A DNA stretch of 63,987 nucleotides from Kiritimatiellia bacterium (lineage in GTDB: Bacteria > Verrucomicrobiota > Kiritimatiellia > RFP12 > UBA1067). Each line of letters starts with the position of its first letter. Within the stretch, counting starts at the first letter, position 1. The DNA lies in the NCBI GenBank assembly GCA_017395505.1, contig JAFPUH010000019.1:1-63987 (forward strand), given 5' to 3'. The translations under genes were made by a program, and so were the position numbers. Of this stretch, positions 44,889 through 52,790 are shown one piece after another. The notes under the pieces were generated by a model. That model saw nothing but the letters and a program-made list of their open reading frames with translations. It ran no database searches and was not told where the DNA came from.

Positions 44889-45446
44889 CTACTTGTTGGC
44901 CTTCTTGACGAGATCCGCCAGGACGGGATCCTTCTCGACGATCTCCTCGTCGGTAAGGCCCTCGATCTCGTGGGGAAAGACTATCCAGTCCAACCCGACA
45001 TCCCTTACGAAATAGTCGGGCTTGAGCTCGGTCTGGTTCTTCTCCGGCTTCCAGTAGACGCAGGCCATGCGCATTTCTGCGCCAGTGGATTCGATGCGCT
45101 GCTTGACCGCCGCGGCTGTCTTGCCCGTATCGAACACGTCATCGACGACAAGAACCTTGTCGCCCGGCCTGAGCATTCCGAAGATGAGGTCGCCGTGGGT
45201 GAACACGACGCCGCCCTTGTTTTCGCCGATGCCGGTGTAGCTGACGGACTTGAGCGGGATGTGCTGCACATTCCAGCCCGTCACCTTGAAGAACTCGTGC
45301 ACGGAGATGCCGACGGGGGCCCCTCCGCGCCAGAGAGCTATAAGGATGTCCGGCTTCCAGCCGGACATCCTGACCTCTGCGGCGAGCTTCCAGGTATCTT
45401 GATGATACTCGTTCGCCGTCAGGTAATGCTTGTCGTTGAGACCCAT
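44889..45446 (-). CDS. purine phosphoribosyltransferase (hypoxanthine type)
   Basis: A 185-residue type I phosphoribosyltransferase. The PRPP-binding loop VLVVDDVFDTGKTAAAVKQR and the flexible-loop region YTGIGENKGGVVF are clear. It probably salvages hypoxanthine or guanine, or a related base, but the base-specific residues do not settle which. The ATG shares one base with the porin stop (TAATG). It is the last gene of a two-gene operon closing the nucleobase-salvage cluster. Confidence 0.8.
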   Translation of the reverse strand: MGLNDKHYLTANEYHQDTWKLAAEVRMSGWKPDILIALWRGGAPVGISVHEFFKVTGWNVQHIPLKSVSYTGIGENKGGVVFTHGDLIFGMLRPGDKVLVVDDVFDTGKTAAAVKQRIESTGAEMRMACVYWKPEKNQTELKPDYFVRDVGLDWIVFPHEIEGLTDEEIVEKDPVLADLVKKANK

Positions 45447-46441
45447 TAGAAGTTGACCGTCACGCCAGCACCACACCAGACAAAGTCCTTATAGGAGCCA
45501 TAAGCGGCACCATGGCTGTGGTCGGAAGCATCACGAAGGTCCTTGTCCATCGTCGTGCAGTAGGCGATCTTGGCGAAGAGACCGAAGTTCTCGGTGAGCT
45601 GGTAGTTGGCATCGAGCTGCAGCTTGGCAGTGGCGAGACCTCCGTTGTGGAACTCGTTGAAGCCGGCAGTCGGGAAGCACCAGTTGTACTTGTGATCGCG
45701 ATAGACGAACACGAGAGCCGGGGTAAGAGTGAGCTCGTCGGTAACGGCGAATGCACGACGGACACCAAACTGGAGAAGGTCGGCATTGTTCTCATGATAC
45801 TCATGCACCCAATCGAGGAACGGCACGAGGAACGGGTTGACGAGCGCGAAGCTGTGGTTCCAGTCCATCGTGGTCGAGGTCGAACGACGACCGCCCCAGG
45901 GGGTGTTGATGCCGTTGTGGCGGCGGTGGGGGTAGTAGTACCATACGAGTGAAGTGCGATAGTCGAGACCGATCGTCTGGTCATCATCGAACCAGAAGGT
46001 CTTGCCCCAGTGAACATTGTAATCCCACTCATTGAACGCCTTGCCATAGGAGGCGCGACGCTTATCAGTGAGGTCGGTGTTCGACCAGATGCCCACACCG
46101 ATGTAACCGAGGTTGGTGTCATCCCAGTTGAGGTTCATGTTGCCCTCGATGTAACCCTGAGCCGTCGGCTCGGAATTGACGAGCGAACCGTAGAGCTGGT
46201 AGCCCGAGTAGACGCCGTAGTTGCCGAAGCCCCAGAAGAGGGTGTCGACAGGCTCGGAAGCGGGAGCGGCCTCGGCGACGGGCGCCTCTTCGACTACGGG
46301 AGCAACCTCAACGGGCTGTTCAACGGGAACGGACGCTTCAACCGCGACAGGAGCGGCCTCTTCCACCACAGGAGCGGTGGCTTCTTCGGCGAACGCGCAG
46401 AAAGTCGCTGCCGAGCAAAGTGCAACCATAAGTTTCTTCAT
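45446..46441 (-). CDS. outer-membrane porin-like protein with acidic Ala/Pro/Glu spacer
   Basis: A 331-residue protein with a signal peptide (MKKLMVALCSAATFCAFA), a 50-residue linker rich in Glu, Ala, Val and Pro (APVVEEAAPVAVEASV), and a beta-barrel with alternating aromatic strands ending GVTVNF, typical of C-terminal outer-membrane insertion. It is cotranscribed with the phosphoribosyltransferase and adjacent to permeases, so a nucleoside or nucleobase channel is plausible (inference). Its promoter is at 46499-46527. Confidence 0.75.
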   Translation of the reverse strand: MKKLMVALCSAATFCAFAEEATAPVVEEAAPVAVEASVPVEQPVEVAPVVEEAPVAEAAPASEPVDTLFWGFGNYGVYSGYQLYGSLVNSEPTAQGYIEGNMNLNWDDTNLGYIGVGIWSNTDLTDKRRASYGKAFNEWDYNVHWGKTFWFDDDQTIGLDYRTSLVWYYYPHRRHNGINTPWGGRRSTSTTMDWNHSFALVNPFLVPFLDWVHEYHENNADLLQFGVRRAFAVTDELTLTPALVFVYRDHKYNWCFPTAGFNEFHNGGLATAKLQLDANYQLTENFGLFAKIAYCTTMDKDLRDASDHSHGAAYGSYKDFVWCGAGVTVNF

Positions 46442-46498: not shown

Positions 46499-46527
46499 AG
46501 TATATCATTTTCCGGGGTACTTTACAA
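46499..46527 (-). promoter_or_regulatory. promoter of the porin-phosphoribosyltransferase operon
   Basis: Minus strand: TTGTAA (46522-46527), 17 bp, TATACT (46499-46504) with AATGA before it. It overlaps the end of apt. Confidence 0.7.
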
Positions 46528-47035
46528 GTGACGTGACGTCATATTTCGAAAGAATGGTTTTAACTGCACCAAATCCCTCGAGTTCTATCGCAAACATCAT
46601 CTTAACGACCTTGCCCCCAAGCCTTTCCACGAGCCGTGCGCTGGCAAGCGCAGTGCCGCCGGTCGCGAGCAGGTCATCCACAACCACGATCCTCTCTCCT
46701 TGGGAGATGGCATCCTTGTGCATGTGTACGGTCGCCCGCCCATATTCAAGATCGTATTCTTCGCTGATCGTTTCGCGCGGCAGCTTGCCTGGCTTGCGGA
46801 TCGGCACGAACGCACACCTCAGGCGGTCCGCCAAGGCGGCGCCGAAGATGAACCCGCGAGAATCAGGGGCGGCGACCTTGTCGACGTGAACCCCAGACAG
46901 CGCGCGCTCCATCTCGATCATGGCTAGACGGAAACCCTCGCCCGAGTCGAGGATTCCCGTCACGTCGCGGAAAAGGACGCCCGGCTTCGGAAAGTCCGGG
47001 ACGACCTTTATGTACTTTTCAAGCTTGTTTTCCAT
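46505..47035 (-). CDS. apt: adenine phosphoribosyltransferase
   Basis: A 176-residue enzyme that salvages adenine to AMP. It has VPDFPKPGVLFRDVTGIL near the start, the adenine-pocket AAPDSRGFIFGAALA and PRPP loop VVVDDLLATGGTALA. Length and start match the family. It is 16 bp after the uracil-type permease gene in the salvage operon. Confidence 0.95.
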   Translation of the reverse strand: MENKLEKYIKVVPDFPKPGVLFRDVTGILDSGEGFRLAMIEMERALSGVHVDKVAAPDSRGFIFGAALADRLRCAFVPIRKPGKLPRETISEEYDLEYGRATVHMHKDAISQGERIVVVDDLLATGGTALASARLVERLGGKVVKMMFAIELEGFGAVKTILSKYDVTSLVKYPGK

Positions 47036-47051
47036 GGCAATGGAATTCCGC

Positions 47052-48689
47052 TTACTTCTCCTTCACGCCGCCGAAACGGTCCGCATCCTTGATGGATGGC
47101 GCGGTCTCGGAGAACGAGAAGTCCTTCCCAGGCAGCACGGCGTTCAGCACTATGCCCATGAGCGCACCGACCGCAAGGCCGGAGAGCGATATGTTGAGCG
47201 AACCGACGCTGAACTTGATCGCGCCGGCGCTCGAGAACGAGATGCCGAGCGTGAGCACGAGGATGAGCGCGGCGATGAGCATGTTGCGGCTCTTGCCGAG
47301 GTCGACCTGGCTTTCGACGAGGTTGCGGACACCAACTGCGGAAATCATTCCGTAGAGGATGAAGCTGACGCCGCCGATCGTCGCCGCAGGAATCGTGCCG
47401 ATGAATGCAGAGAACTTCGGGCAGAACGAGACGAGAATCGCGAGGCACGCCGCAATGCGGATCACGCGCGGATCGTACACCTTCGAGAGGGACAGCACGC
47501 CGGTGTTCTCGCCGTACGTCGTGTTCGCCGGAGCGCCGAAGAGCGAGGCGAGGAACGTCGCAAGGCCGTCGCCGAGCATCGTGCGGTGCAGACCAGGCTC
47601 CTCGAAGAAGTTGCGCTTGACCGTCGAGGAGATCGCCGACACGTCGCCGACATGCTCCATGATCGTCGCGAACGCCAGCGGGAACACGATGGCGATAGCG
47701 CTGACGATGCGGCCCCAGTCGTGGTTCGCCAGGATCGGGAACACCGTGTTCTCCATCTTGACGGGCAGGCCGATCCACGGCGCCGCCGTGACAGCCGAGT
47801 AGTCGATCGCATCGCCGACGCCGATACCGCCGAGAAGCACGGCGACGAGGTAGGAGGCTATGACGCCCATCAGGATCGGGATGATCTTGAACATTCCCTT
47901 GCCGAAGATCGAGAACGCGATCACCGTGATGATGGCGACGAGCGCGACCGGCCAGTTGGACGTGCAGCTGTTGATCGCGACAGGCGCGAGAACAAGGCCG
48001 ATGCCGATGATGATCGGGCCCGTCACGACCGGCGGGAAGAACTTCATGACCTTCTTGACGCCGCAAGCCTTGACGAACCATGCGACGATGAAGTAGATCA
48101 GCGAGGACGACGCGACGCCCAAGCAGGCGTACTGGAGCATCACCGTCTTCGAGCAGTCCTCGAATCCGGCAGTGCCGGCCATTCCGGCGAGCGCGAAGTA
48201 TCCCGCGAGATACGCGAAGCTAGAGCCCAGGAATGCGGGGACGATGCGCTTCGTCACGAGGTGGAAGAGCAGCGTGCCAACGCCAGCCCAGAGCAGCGTC
48301 GCGCTCGTGCTGAGGCCCGTAAGTATCGGCACGAGAATCGTCGCGCCGAACATCGCGAACATGTGCTGCACGCCAAGAAGCCCCATCTTGGGCAGACCGA
48401 GCGTACGGGCGTCGTAGACGGCATCCGCAGACTGGTACTTCCTGCGAAGCGTCTCGATGGCCCTGGCGAGCGCATACGACTCCTCGCTGGTTACGACGCC
48501 GTCCTCGGCGATGTCAACGAGCATCTTCTCGAAGGCCGCAAGGTCGGCATCGTCCTTGGTGAACGGATGCACCATGCCAATCAACGCACGGGTCTCCGCC
48601 ATGTCGGCCCGTCCGTCCTCGAACGTGAACCTCTCGGCAGCCAGAAGCAGCTGCGAGACGGCCCAGATTCCGGAATTCTTTGTTGCCAT
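47052..48689 (-). CDS. NCS2 uracil/xanthine permease with N-terminal regulatory-like domain
   Basis: A 545-residue nucleobase:cation symporter-2. The transport core (residue ~100 on) has GVQHMFAMFGATILVPILTG, VVTGPIIIGIGLVLAPVA and the GENTGVLSLSKVYDPRV motif, resembling UraA. Residues 1-90 are an extra soluble domain with EDGRADMAET and AEDGVVTSEES. The same type of domain precedes the neighbouring permease, which is unusual for this family. It is likely to import uracil or a purine across the inner membrane. Confidence 0.88.
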   Translation of the reverse strand: MATKNSGIWAVSQLLLAAERFTFEDGRADMAETRALIGMVHPFTKDDADLAAFEKMLVDIAEDGVVTSEESYALARAIETLRRKYQSADAVYDARTLGLPKMGLLGVQHMFAMFGATILVPILTGLSTSATLLWAGVGTLLFHLVTKRIVPAFLGSSFAYLAGYFALAGMAGTAGFEDCSKTVMLQYACLGVASSSLIYFIVAWFVKACGVKKVMKFFPPVVTGPIIIGIGLVLAPVAINSCTSNWPVALVAIITVIAFSIFGKGMFKIIPILMGVIASYLVAVLLGGIGVGDAIDYSAVTAAPWIGLPVKMENTVFPILANHDWGRIVSAIAIVFPLAFATIMEHVGDVSAISSTVKRNFFEEPGLHRTMLGDGLATFLASLFGAPANTTYGENTGVLSLSKVYDPRVIRIAACLAILVSFCPKFSAFIGTIPAATIGGVSFILYGMISAVGVRNLVESQVDLGKSRNMLIAALILVLTLGISFSSAGAIKFSVGSLNISLSGLAVGALMGIVLNAVLPGKDFSFSETAPSIKDADRFGGVKEK

Positions 48690-48715
48690 TTCTACTCCTT
48701 ATGTTTTTATTTGGC

Positions 48716-50401
48716 TTACATGAGCGCGTACTTCGCGATGAAGAGCGCAGTCAAGATGTACATGATCCAGTGGATGCGCTTGAAGTTGCAAGCGAGCGCA
48801 TTGATCACCGTATAGGATATGATACCGAACATGATGCCGTCGGAGATCGAGTAGCAGAACGGCATGGCGGCTATCGCAAGAAACGCAGGGACCGCCTCGC
48901 CCGCATCGCGCCAGTCGACATCGGCGCACGAGGAAAGCATCATGTAGCCGACGATGATGAGCGCAGGGGTCGTGGCGAAGCCGGGAATCGCGAGGAAGAT
49001 CGGCGCGAACAGGATCGCGAGGGCGAACAGGGCGGCGGAGGTGACGGCCGTAAGACCGGTCTTGCCGCCGGCCATCACGCCGGACGCCGACTCGACGTAG
49101 GTCGTTGTCGTCGACGTTCCGAGCACGGCGCCGATCGAAGTCGCTATCGAGTCGGCACAGAGCGCGCCGGAGATTCGGGGCAGCTTGCCGTCCTTGTCGA
49201 GGAAACCACCCTTCATCGAAACGCCGATCAGCGTGCCGAGCGTATCGAAGAGATCCACGAAGAAGAACGCGAACATCACGACGAAGAAGTCGAGCGTCTT
49301 GATGAGCGTCCAGCCGCTCTTGACGACCACTCCGTCCTGGGTGTGCGTCCAGCCCTCGGGGTTGAAGAGCGCGCCGACCGTCTGGCCGAACTCGCTGAAC
49401 GTATTCGCGATGTCACCCATCGTGAAGCTGGGATAGGTGGAGAAGTATCCCGCCGCAGGATCAGGCACATACACGCCGGTCGCCTGGGCGATCATGCCGA
49501 GCACCCAGGTGGCGATGATGCCGAGCAGGATCGCGCCCTTGAGCCCCTTGACGAGCATGAAGCCGGTCAGCAGCGTGCCGGCGAGCGCCAGAACTGCGGT
49601 CACGCCCTGGGTATGGAAGTCCACCGACTTGAAGTTGACGAGCGCAACGAGCGTCGCCTGGTTGTCGACGATGATTCCGGCGGTCTTCATCGCGATAAGG
49701 CAGATGAAGAGGCCGATTCCCGCCGCAACGGCACGCTTGAGCGTAAGAGGAATCGCATTGAATATGCCCTCGCGGACAGGCGTCAGCGAAAGCGCCAGGA
49801 ACACTATGCCCTCCACGAACACAGCCAGCAGCGCGAACTGCCAGCTGTAGCCCATGCCCAGCACGACGCCGAACGTGAGGAACGCGTTGAGGCCCATGCC
49901 TGGCGCCAGCACGAACGGATAGTTCGACATGAACGCCATGAGCAGCGTACCGACTACAGCCGAGACGGCCGTCGCGAGGAATACGCCGCCGCGCGGGATT
50001 CCGGCGATGGAAAGTATGTTGGGGTTCACGGCGAGGATGTACGCCATCGTCATGAACGTCGTGATGCCGGCGACGACTTCGGTCTTGACCGTCGTGCGGT
50101 TGCCGTTCAGCTTGAAGAGCCTGCCGAGGAACGTAGTCTCGGGCGCCGTTTCGCCGGTCTCCCTGACGAGCCACTTCAGGTGGGCGCCGATCCTGATCGA
50201 CTCCTCGCCGGTTATGACGCCGTCTTCGCGAACCTCTTCGAGCGCACGGACGAACTCCGCCATCTCGGGGCTGCTCGCGGCCAGCGGACGGGTGAAGTTG
50301 AGCAGCAGTTCGGTTTCGGCCTTGTCGACCTTGCCGTCCTCAAGGATGCCCCTCTCAAGACTCCTCACCGCATTCAATACTTCTGGGCTTAGTGTTGCCA
50401 T
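48716..50401 (-). CDS. NCS2 purine permease (AzgA/PbuG type) with N-terminal regulatory-like domain
   Basis: A 561-residue permease. The family mark is VVAGITTFMTMAYILAVNPN (residue ~109 on), followed by typical membrane segments and ATSIGAVLGTSTTTTYVESASGV. It should import guanine, hypoxanthine or adenine. Residues 9-82 form a soluble domain matching the one in the adjacent uracil-type permease (EDGKVDKAET, REDGVITGEES). It lies 26 bp before that gene in the same operon. Confidence 0.9.
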   Translation of the reverse strand: MATLSPEVLNAVRSLERGILEDGKVDKAETELLLNFTRPLAASSPEMAEFVRALEEVREDGVITGEESIRIGAHLKWLVRETGETAPETTFLGRLFKLNGNRTTVKTEVVAGITTFMTMAYILAVNPNILSIAGIPRGGVFLATAVSAVVGTLLMAFMSNYPFVLAPGMGLNAFLTFGVVLGMGYSWQFALLAVFVEGIVFLALSLTPVREGIFNAIPLTLKRAVAAGIGLFICLIAMKTAGIIVDNQATLVALVNFKSVDFHTQGVTAVLALAGTLLTGFMLVKGLKGAILLGIIATWVLGMIAQATGVYVPDPAAGYFSTYPSFTMGDIANTFSEFGQTVGALFNPEGWTHTQDGVVVKSGWTLIKTLDFFVVMFAFFFVDLFDTLGTLIGVSMKGGFLDKDGKLPRISGALCADSIATSIGAVLGTSTTTTYVESASGVMAGGKTGLTAVTSAALFALAILFAPIFLAIPGFATTPALIIVGYMMLSSCADVDWRDAGEAVPAFLAIAAMPFCYSISDGIMFGIISYTVINALACNFKRIHWIMYILTALFIAKYALM

Positions 50402-50430: not shown

Positions 50431-52128
50431 TCAGATTTCAAAAGCGTTCCTGTTGTAGCCGGTCGTCATCATATTGCGCCGCGCAGGTATCGCGATCATC
50501 AGATTAGAAACCATGTACGAGCGGAGCGACGATATCCTGGCATCGGCGTCGGTTATGTCGAATATCTCGCCGTCGTCCCGCATAATTATGCGTATGTTCT
50601 TGCTGAAGTCAAGCGTGACCTCCGCGGATATCCGGCGCCCCTTGTTGTGCTCCTTTACGAGCATCAGAGTCTCCTCTATGAGAAGCGAGATGAAATTGGC
50701 CTTGTTTTCGACCGAGCAGTGGCGCACGACGAGAAACTTGTAGATACGCTCGGAAAGCTTGCATATCTCGCTCGGCTCAAGCGCCAGATCGAAGACTCGC
50801 GAGCGCCTCAGCTTTTCGCGATGCAGAAAATGCGGCAGCGCCTTAGAACCATAGCGAACGGTTATGAATGCCGCAATAGCCGCGATCGCCGCATAGGGCG
50901 CAATCGCCAGGGCGGACCAGACGCCATTCACCCCGAAAGCCACGCCGAGCGCCGGAAACAGCACTATCGGCATGACGAACAGGGCGAGCAGAGTCAGCAC
51001 AAAGGCGAGGTTTTCCCTCGATATGAAGGTGAAGTAGGAGTTGAAGAGCGAAACGGTCGCCATGCCTACGAGCCCAAGCGACACCAGCCGCACCGCTGTC
51101 TTGGCCGGCCCCACCAGCGCCGGGTCATTGATTCCAACCATCATTAGGATAAGCGAAGGGAACGCGCAAAGGACGAGCGTAAGGAATGTGCCGGAAGCGC
51201 CGGCGGCCACTTCGCCGTAGCGGAGGATGCGCCTCGTAAGCCTGTCGTTGCCCTCTCCTATATATACGCTGGCGATTGGCTGCATGGCCCTCGGAATGGC
51301 GTCGAAGACCTCTATTAACCCCAGCACCGCCACGACAGCAGCCAACACCGGCAGCACCCCCTCGCCGAAGCGCGTTATGACGAACACGTTGAGCGCAAGA
51401 ATGAGAAGCGCGTCAAAAAGCTTGCTCGACGCGTCGCCTATCGAGCATTTGCAGATGCTGAGCGTATCCTTGAGCGAGAAATGGCGCACGAAGCGCAGCG
51501 AATTCGTCTTGCGCCTGAAGTGCAGCGAAAGGACGCCGAGCGAAAGGATGTGCCCCAGAACCATGGCTAGCGCGCACCCCGCGAAGCCGGCAGCCGTCGT
51601 AAGCAGAAACGCCAGCACGAAGTTGCTGAATATCTGCACGACATAGGCCCATACGCAGATCCTGCCGTCGCCGTCCGCATAGCAGATGGACGACAAATAG
51701 AAGAATAGCGGCTCCAGAACCGCACACGGCGTAAACCAGAGCCAGTATTCCTTAAGACCCGCCAGCACAGGGCCCGTCACCCCAAAAGACTCGGCCGCCC
51801 TCACCCTGACCATAAGCAGGATTGCGGCGGCCGCGAACCCAAGCATCAGCGCGCTCCATAGTCCCTGGGTAAGGAACTCGCTAGCGCGCCGCTTGTCGAA
51901 CCGCCCCATCTCGACCGAGTAGAGCACGCTCGTGCCGGTTCCGACCAGCAGCGCCAGGAATGCGACTGCGTTCGTGACGGGCTGGATCAGGCCGATGGAC
52001 GAAAGACCGTCCTCGCCTATGACATGGCCGCAGACAATGCTACCCGAGATGCCCGTCAGGAACTCCGCAACCATGGCAAAGGCTGCGGCTGGCAGGAACC
52101 TCAGGAACTTGTCCAGGGCAAACGTCAT
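50431..52128 (-). CDS. MATE transporter fused to a C-terminal HATPase-like domain
   Basis: A 565-residue membrane protein. Residues 1 to about 430 form a 12-segment MATE transporter (start AMVAEFLTGISGSIVCGHVI, middle FDAIPRAMQPIASVYIGEGN). The remaining ~135 residues resemble a GHKL/RsbW-like ATP-binding domain: ISLLIEETLMLVKEHNKG (N box with Glu), IRIIMRDDGEIFDI (Asp-Gly box) and GYNRNAFEI at the end. Both halves are in one frame. The substrate is unknown; its place between upp and two nucleobase permeases hints at nucleobase-related export. Confidence 0.75.
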   Translation of the reverse strand: MTFALDKFLRFLPAAAFAMVAEFLTGISGSIVCGHVIGEDGLSSIGLIQPVTNAVAFLALLVGTGTSVLYSVEMGRFDKRRASEFLTQGLWSALMLGFAAAAILLMVRVRAAESFGVTGPVLAGLKEYWLWFTPCAVLEPLFFYLSSICYADGDGRICVWAYVVQIFSNFVLAFLLTTAAGFAGCALAMVLGHILSLGVLSLHFRRKTNSLRFVRHFSLKDTLSICKCSIGDASSKLFDALLILALNVFVITRFGEGVLPVLAAVVAVLGLIEVFDAIPRAMQPIASVYIGEGNDRLTRRILRYGEVAAGASGTFLTLVLCAFPSLILMMVGINDPALVGPAKTAVRLVSLGLVGMATVSLFNSYFTFISRENLAFVLTLLALFVMPIVLFPALGVAFGVNGVWSALAIAPYAAIAAIAAFITVRYGSKALPHFLHREKLRRSRVFDLALEPSEICKLSERIYKFLVVRHCSVENKANFISLLIEETLMLVKEHNKGRRISAEVTLDFSKNIRIIMRDDGEIFDITDADARISSLRSYMVSNLMIAIPARRNMMTTGYNRNAFEI

Positions 52129-52135
52129 CGGACGT

Positions 52136-52762
52136 TCAGAGCGTGCCGAAGATACGGTCGCCGGCGTCGCCCAGGCCGGGCACTATGTAGTAATGGGAGT
52201 TGAGGCGCTCATCCTTCGCCGCCGTGTAGACCGGCACGTCGGGATGTTCGCCCTCGAACTTGGCTATGCCTTCGGGAGCGGAAATGAGGTTGAGGAACTT
52301 TATGCGCCTGTAGCCCAGCTTCTTGAGCTGCATGACCGCGTCGCAGGCGCTGCCGCCGGTCGCGAGCATGGGATCGATCACAAGGGCCAGCTCCTCGCCG
52401 TCCTTTGCCGGCGGAACCTTCGCGTAATAGGGAATCGGCTCGGCGGTAGCCTCGTTGCGCTGCATGCCGAGAACTCCGACCTTCGCGTAGGGCAATACAT
52501 TCAGCATCGCGTCGAGCATGCCCATTCCGGCGCGAAGTATCGGCACGAGTATGATGCGAGGCTCGTCCACCTTTATGCCTTGGGCCTTGGCGACGGGCGT
52601 GGTGACGTCTACCTTCTTGACGCGGACGTCCTTGAGCGCCTCGTATGCGAGAAAGGTCGTTATCTCGTTCACTAGCTCGCGAAACAGTTTGGGCGGGGTT
52701 GCATGATCGCGCATAAGCGTGACGCGGTGGCCTACCAGCGGATGTTCAAGTACGACGTGCAT
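52136..52762 (-). CDS. upp: uracil phosphoribosyltransferase
   Basis: A 208-residue enzyme making UMP from uracil and PRPP. Markers are LVPILRAGMGMLDAML, the PRPP loop VIDPMLATGGSACDAV and the C-terminal YIVPGLGDAGDRIFGT. Of two adjacent ATG codons, the second is chosen because it is 5 nt after AAGGAGG. It heads the five-gene salvage operon (upp, MATE, two permeases, apt). A -10 TATAAT with TATGA upstream is at 52791-52796. Confidence 0.95.
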   Translation of the reverse strand: MHVVLEHPLVGHRVTLMRDHATPPKLFRELVNEITTFLAYEALKDVRVKKVDVTTPVAKAQGIKVDEPRIILVPILRAGMGMLDAMLNVLPYAKVGVLGMQRNEATAEPIPYYAKVPPAKDGEELALVIDPMLATGGSACDAVMQLKKLGYRRIKFLNLISAPEGIAKFEGEHPDVPVYTAAKDERLNSHYYIVPGLGDAGDRIFGTL

Positions 52763-52790
52763 CATCTCCTCCTTGGGTATTTGAAGAAAT

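Follow-up and report, generated by a model that had tools for sequence, protein, structure and literature searches.

A compact helical module on two neighboring NCS2 permeases recurs on other transport and salvage proteins of one gut Kiritimatiellae family

Introduction

TerB (PF05099) and DUF533 (PF04391) contain helix-loop-helix units with loops of the pattern ADGx(I/V)xxxE, and in TerB these loops lie about 70 residues apart within a domain of 118 positions. EF-hand proteins likewise pair two helix-loop-helix units; here, the pattern DGx(I/V)xxxE corresponds to loop positions 5 to 12, and positions 1, 3, and 5 are acidic. A linker domain of the same pattern is present in PHROG 3989 and in DnaQ-type exonuclease/BRCT proteins. 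Among transporters, SulP/SLC26 proteins combine the UraA fold with an added, folded cytosolic STAS domain, which is alpha/beta, C-terminal, and tied to one transporter family. Whether permeases hand an imported base directly to a phosphoribosyltransferase has long been asked in the field of nucleobase salvage.

Here, we describe a domain (hereafter, the module) at the N-termini of two adjacent NCS2 permeases of a gut bacterium. It consists of two helix-loop-helix units whose loops read DGx(I/V)xxxE, as in TerB and DUF533, but only 38 residues separate one loop from the other. Like SulP/SLC26 proteins, the permeases are UraA-fold transporters with an extra, probably cytosolic domain; unlike STAS, however, the module is all-helical, mostly N-terminal, and also found on soluble enzymes. 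PHROG 3989 proteins, in turn, are DNA-related and contain a BRCT domain, whereas the carriers in our window are transporters. In the literature searched, we found no TerB-like fusions with transporters and no nucleobase metabolons of such kind, and the spread of the module over transporters and salvage enzymes appears to be undescribed. The module is a domain unnamed in Pfam in its compact form that has, within a single bacterial family, come to be attached to unrelated transporters. Its presence on permeases and an enzyme of one operon, together with bare homologues in sister genomes and one case of attachment at the opposite end, provides a natural experiment.

Results

The window, i.e. the whole stretch of 63,987 nucleotides that was analyzed, comes from the 1.8-Mb genome of a gut Kiritimatiellae bacterium and contains a nucleobase-salvage cluster on its minus strand. 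This strand encodes uracil phosphoribosyltransferase (upp, 52136-52765; PF14681, E 2.7e-68), a MATE transporter (50431-52128), a purine-type NCS2 permease of 561 residues (48716-50401; PF00860, E 2.8e-32, 112 bits; no NCBIfam match), a uracil-type NCS2 permease of 545 residues, the membrane part of which starts at residue ~104 (47052-48689; PF00860, E 3.4e-81, 273 bits), adenine phosphoribosyltransferase (apt, 46505-47035; PF00156), an outer-membrane-like protein, judged from sequence only (45446-46441), and a further phosphoribosyltransferase of the cluster (44889-45476; PF00156, E 2.2e-13). Both permeases exceed the PF00860 cut-off of 27 bits, with the match starting at residue ~104 in each, and therefore belong to NCS2 (Xan_ur_permease). 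The uracil-type protein also matches the PRK10720 uracil permease model (2.2e-83), although below the cut-off of that model, and the 561-residue permease is a member of what we take to be the purine/AzgA-like branch. The upp, apt, and further phosphoribosyltransferase genes of the window are without the module. The MATE transporter extends ~130 residues past its membrane part, where Pfam assigns only MatE; to our eye, this C-terminal stretch resembles a GHKL/RsbW-type ATPase domain.

The two permease genes are separated by 26 bases. The ATG of the uracil permease is preceded by AAGGAG (48695-48700, minus strand, read from the sequence) and, given that this ribosome-binding site and the ATG both lie ahead of the module, the module belongs to the translated protein. 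Pfam and NCBIfam scans returned nothing over cut-off in the first ~100 residues of either permease, and Pfam gave no STAS match in the two proteins. Compared with each other by BLASTP, however, the N-termini align without gaps at 24 of 66 identical positions (36%; E 1e-13 as a single comparison). The local alignment of the modules scores 120, against a mean of 26 (SD 4.9) and a maximum of 56 for 5,000 shuffles, and a search of the genome with one copy recovers the other at E 5e-10. An earlier note on this DNA, made from the sequence alone, had proposed that permeases of two different NCS2 branches start with the same domain, and both halves of this proposal hold: the domain, of ~70 residues, is common to the two, and the membrane cores are only ~24% identical (87 of 362 aligned residues, score 118). 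The paired motifs it had read are present (FEDGRADMAET and LEDGKVDKAET, followed by AEDGVVTSEES and REDGVITGEES), and its residue ranges agree with our profile boundaries at 48435-48656 in the uracil permease (E 2.8e-29) and 50159-50374 in the purine-type permease (E 6.1e-30), both on the minus strand.

That the likeness arose by chance, or that it was simply inherited from an NCS2 ancestor of both proteins and reflects no distinct module, might be suspected since both proteins are NCS2 members encoded side by side. The modules are more alike than the cores, however, and no shuffle reached their score, which refutes this explanation; bare homologues are also the rule, and unrelated proteins carry the module, leaving such an origin with next to no probability. 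Comparison of the uracil-permease modules of the window and of assembly L007 gave a dN of 0.23 and a dS of about 3.2 (saturated), pointing to strong amino-acid constraint. The purine-permease module pair gave a dN of 0.26 and no usable dS.

Eight residues are invariant over 21 rows of permease and Apt modules, namely D-G-x-x-D-x-x-E in loop 1 and D-G and E-S in loop 2. At the (D/T/S) position of the pattern DG-x-(I/V)-(D/T/S)-x-x-E, loop 2 takes T, S, or D. AlphaFold models of the two window modules show the same order of four helices each, with moderate support for the uracil-permease copy (mean pLDDT 74.9) and good support for the purine-permease copy (mean pLDDT 83.3; helices at residues 6-20, 27-41, 45-60, and 65-82). 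Fold searches of both models against the PDB recovered generic helical bundles without a clear relative, and neither TerB nor EF-hand proteins were among the significant matches; the lack of a clear PDB relative does not argue for a new fold. Between the module's own two units the likeness is low (scores 23 and 32), as might be expected of an old internal duplication.

The earlier note was reminded of TerB-like or calcium-binding motifs. The comparison with TerB stands for one helix-loop-helix unit only. Set beside TerB sequences, the module alignments show the DGx(I/V)xxxE loop within a helix-loop-helix twice, and in a profile comparison the first unit matches TerB with 73.7% probability over 28 columns; over its whole length, however, the module matches the TerB profile weakly (42.7%). 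Some module rows match PF05099 at best with E 6.4e-4 and DUF533 with 4e-4, but the curated cut-off of PF05099 was reached neither in whole-protein scans nor by single rows, the loop spacing is about half that of TerB, and a profile search of the window's genome was negative for TerB. By these tests, the module resembles half of a TerB domain and is probably not a TerB member. Likeness to EF-hands is also limited: the profile matches calcineurin B-like proteins and troponin C weakly (best E 4e-4, a sum of several weak stretches). Of the acidic EF-hand loop positions 1, 3, and 5, only position 5 (D) is kept, whereas hydrophobic or varying residues occupy positions 1 and 3 (in loop 1, F and F in the uracil copy, G and L in the purine copy). 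The loops are therefore not canonical calcium-binding loops, and the tolerance of loop 2 for T, S, or D likewise makes it unlikely that calcium is bound in the canonical way. Each of the 13 module rows has a match to PHROG 3989 (best 6.4e-8). L097 is a full-length PHROG 3989 relative (1.6e-40), and L097 and L142 both have the two loops at similar spacing.

In a contig search, nine Kiritimatiellae-type assemblies (L007-L015) proved to have the module on their uracil permease, and in every readable case the adjoining purine-type permease carries it as well. In one assembly, the purine-type permease (L008:4228-5922) is split into two frames by one in-frame stop, which may be real or an assembly error. 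As the earlier note had stated, NCS2 permeases usually do without the module: it is absent from 66 of 91 distinct uracil-type cores, the bare ones coming mainly from other phyla and some from the window's own genus, and the uracil permease homologues examined from Bacillota, Actinomycetota, Bacteroidota, and Spirochaetota are without it. When 387 genomes of the phylum were searched with the profile, transporter fusions were confined to the window's genus; a broader profile, run on the genus (61 genomes) and the order (162 genomes), brought in further genera of this family. With two contig breaks taken into account, 24 of the 34 genus genomes with an NCS2 permease over cut-off have every such permease fused to the module, nine have none fused, and one is mixed, an all-or-none pattern that is confounded by common descent.

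The window's genome contains two further copies, both C-terminal, on an NhaC-type antiporter (contig 31) and a GlnQ-type ABC ATPase (contig 20). The former answers the earlier question of whether other membrane proteins of this genome have the domain. This antiporter (L087:3714-6143) also displays a putative signal sequence and an N-terminal thioredoxin-like domain with a CHYC motif. Two weaker matches in the same genome were discarded as spurious, one (C45) within the frame of the RNA polymerase alpha subunit and one (C19) antisense to elongation factor G, and phylum-wide matches in GroEL were rejected. Overall, the transporter carriers include uracil, purine-type, xanthine-type, and NupG-like nucleoside permeases, NhaC, and GlnQ-type ATPases. 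Further carriers are adenine phosphoribosyltransferase, a soluble enzyme, a HIT-family hydrolase, a class II aldolase, exonuclease proteins, of which one has BRCT, and small standalone proteins. The module is N-terminal on NCS2 permeases and Apt, and C-terminal on NhaC, ABC ATPase, HIT, and aldolase proteins.

Module-fused Apt was found in L013, L154, L156, L159, L160, L161, L166, L288, and L294. Apt has the module only where the adjoining permeases do, and bare permeases are accompanied by bare Apt (L211, L217, L218). In L288 (4117-5007), Apt is preceded by one and a half modules (profile matches at residues 25-53 and 58-119), an arrangement suggestive of a partial duplication. Domains of the module's pattern also occur in exonuclease, BRCT, and nuclease-like proteins (L142:940-2091, L293:1636-2889, L097, L098), apparently reflecting an older and wider use of the domain.

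Identity between modules is 0.54-0.65 within the large carrier classes and about 0.26-0.41 between classes, and a module tree, although built on few columns, groups by carrier with the fewest possible changes (7). Given that the modules cluster by carrier protein, the two copies of the window are old fusions. The suggestion of the earlier note that the domain was copied between the genes thus survives only in a deep sense, and recent gene-to-gene copying within this genome is ruled out. The tree of uracil-permease cores requires at least three changes of module state and places L150 among N-terminal carriers; in the purine-permease tree, the number of module gains is inflated by truncated rows. 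The L150 uracil permease starts at the usual core (MDSNKEAVYDARTLG...) with no N-terminal module; its module is C-terminal and groups with those of xanthine permeases (SH-aLRT 97). On these trees, L150 is one clear case in which a relative re-acquired the module later.

Discussion

In one family of gut Kiritimatiellae, many transport and salvage proteins have come to bear the module at one of their ends in the course of evolution. Judged by its occurrence among homologues, it does not belong to the standard make-up of NCS2 permeases, and it looks more like a reusable tag than a resemblance by chance. Both termini of UraA are cytoplasmic (PMC5539350), so that by extension the module on NCS2 permeases should face the cytoplasm; on Apt, HIT, and ABC ATPase proteins it must be cytosolic. 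Given that the tag sits at either end of its carriers, and on membrane as well as soluble proteins of one operon, an interaction module is the best explanation, and we tentatively favor a cytoplasmic protein-interaction tag that would gather transporters with salvage enzymes. We are more doubtful about the specific form of this proposal, a lineage-specific docking tag that would gather nucleobase and nucleoside permeases and phosphoribosyltransferases in a membrane-bound uptake-and-trapping complex and was extended to other transporters. In the favored reading, contacts between modules, or with one common partner, would hold permeases and salvage enzymes such as Apt at the inner face of the membrane, where the held enzyme could convert an imported base to its nucleotide before the base leaks back out. 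The sequence pattern DG-x-(I/V)-(D/T/S)-x-x-E is what a tight turn leading into a helix-capping box would look like, and it suggests that the invariant D-G and the (D/T/S)-x-x-E would chiefly hold both turns in shape and cap the helices after them, instead of binding calcium.

A docking or metabolon scaffold domain would be expected on several proteins of one pathway, and the permeases and Apt of one operon share the module. In favor of docking, fused Apt is encoded in the same operon as fused permeases and its module tracks theirs, five nucleobase or nucleoside carrier types (uracil, purine-type, xanthine-type, and NupG-like permeases plus Apt) have the module, as does a HIT hydrolase, and genomes of the genus divide into 24 of 34 with all and 9 of 34 with no permeases fused. 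Counting against it, Apt of the window's own operon is without the module, and the Na+/H+-antiporter-like protein, the amino-acid ABC ATPases, and the aldolase stand outside nucleobase salvage. The main rival, which the earlier note had raised and which is nearly as likely as the interaction tag, is a regulatory sensor: a domain akin to TerB or an EF-hand would bind a cation or another small ligand and thereby tune transport or enzyme activity. Acidic residues are kept in both loops, there is the weak profile likeness to TerB, DUF533, and EF-hand proteins, and most carriers are transporters, which are typical targets of regulation. On the other hand, the non-acidic EF-hand positions 1 and 3, the T, S, or D of loop 2 where a fixed metal ligand would be expected, the failure to reach the TerB cut-off, and the different substrates of the carriers all speak against a sensor. 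Less probable still is an aid to folding, stability, or membrane targeting of the carrier with no specific partner or ligand: such a part could well sit at either end of unrelated proteins and tolerate about 60% sequence difference between carriers, as observed, but it would not readily account for specific polar residues that are strongly constrained across all carriers, nor for enrichment on one pathway and operon.

If the module is an interaction tag, the standalone module proteins are possible soluble partners of the fused copies. One of these (L286:9013-9345) is nearly all module, while the small standalone proteins of L149 and L172-L176 are of a diverged type starting MLTREE...EFW(L/M)LTK. 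Phage collections contained weak module matches only (best E 0.1), and plasmid collections none. Among phage regulators of the YmfL and CII-like types, the C-terminal part is weakly similar to the module's second unit (e.g. 48435-48540 of the window; NF041471, E about 1e-3; PHROG 6499 and 101).
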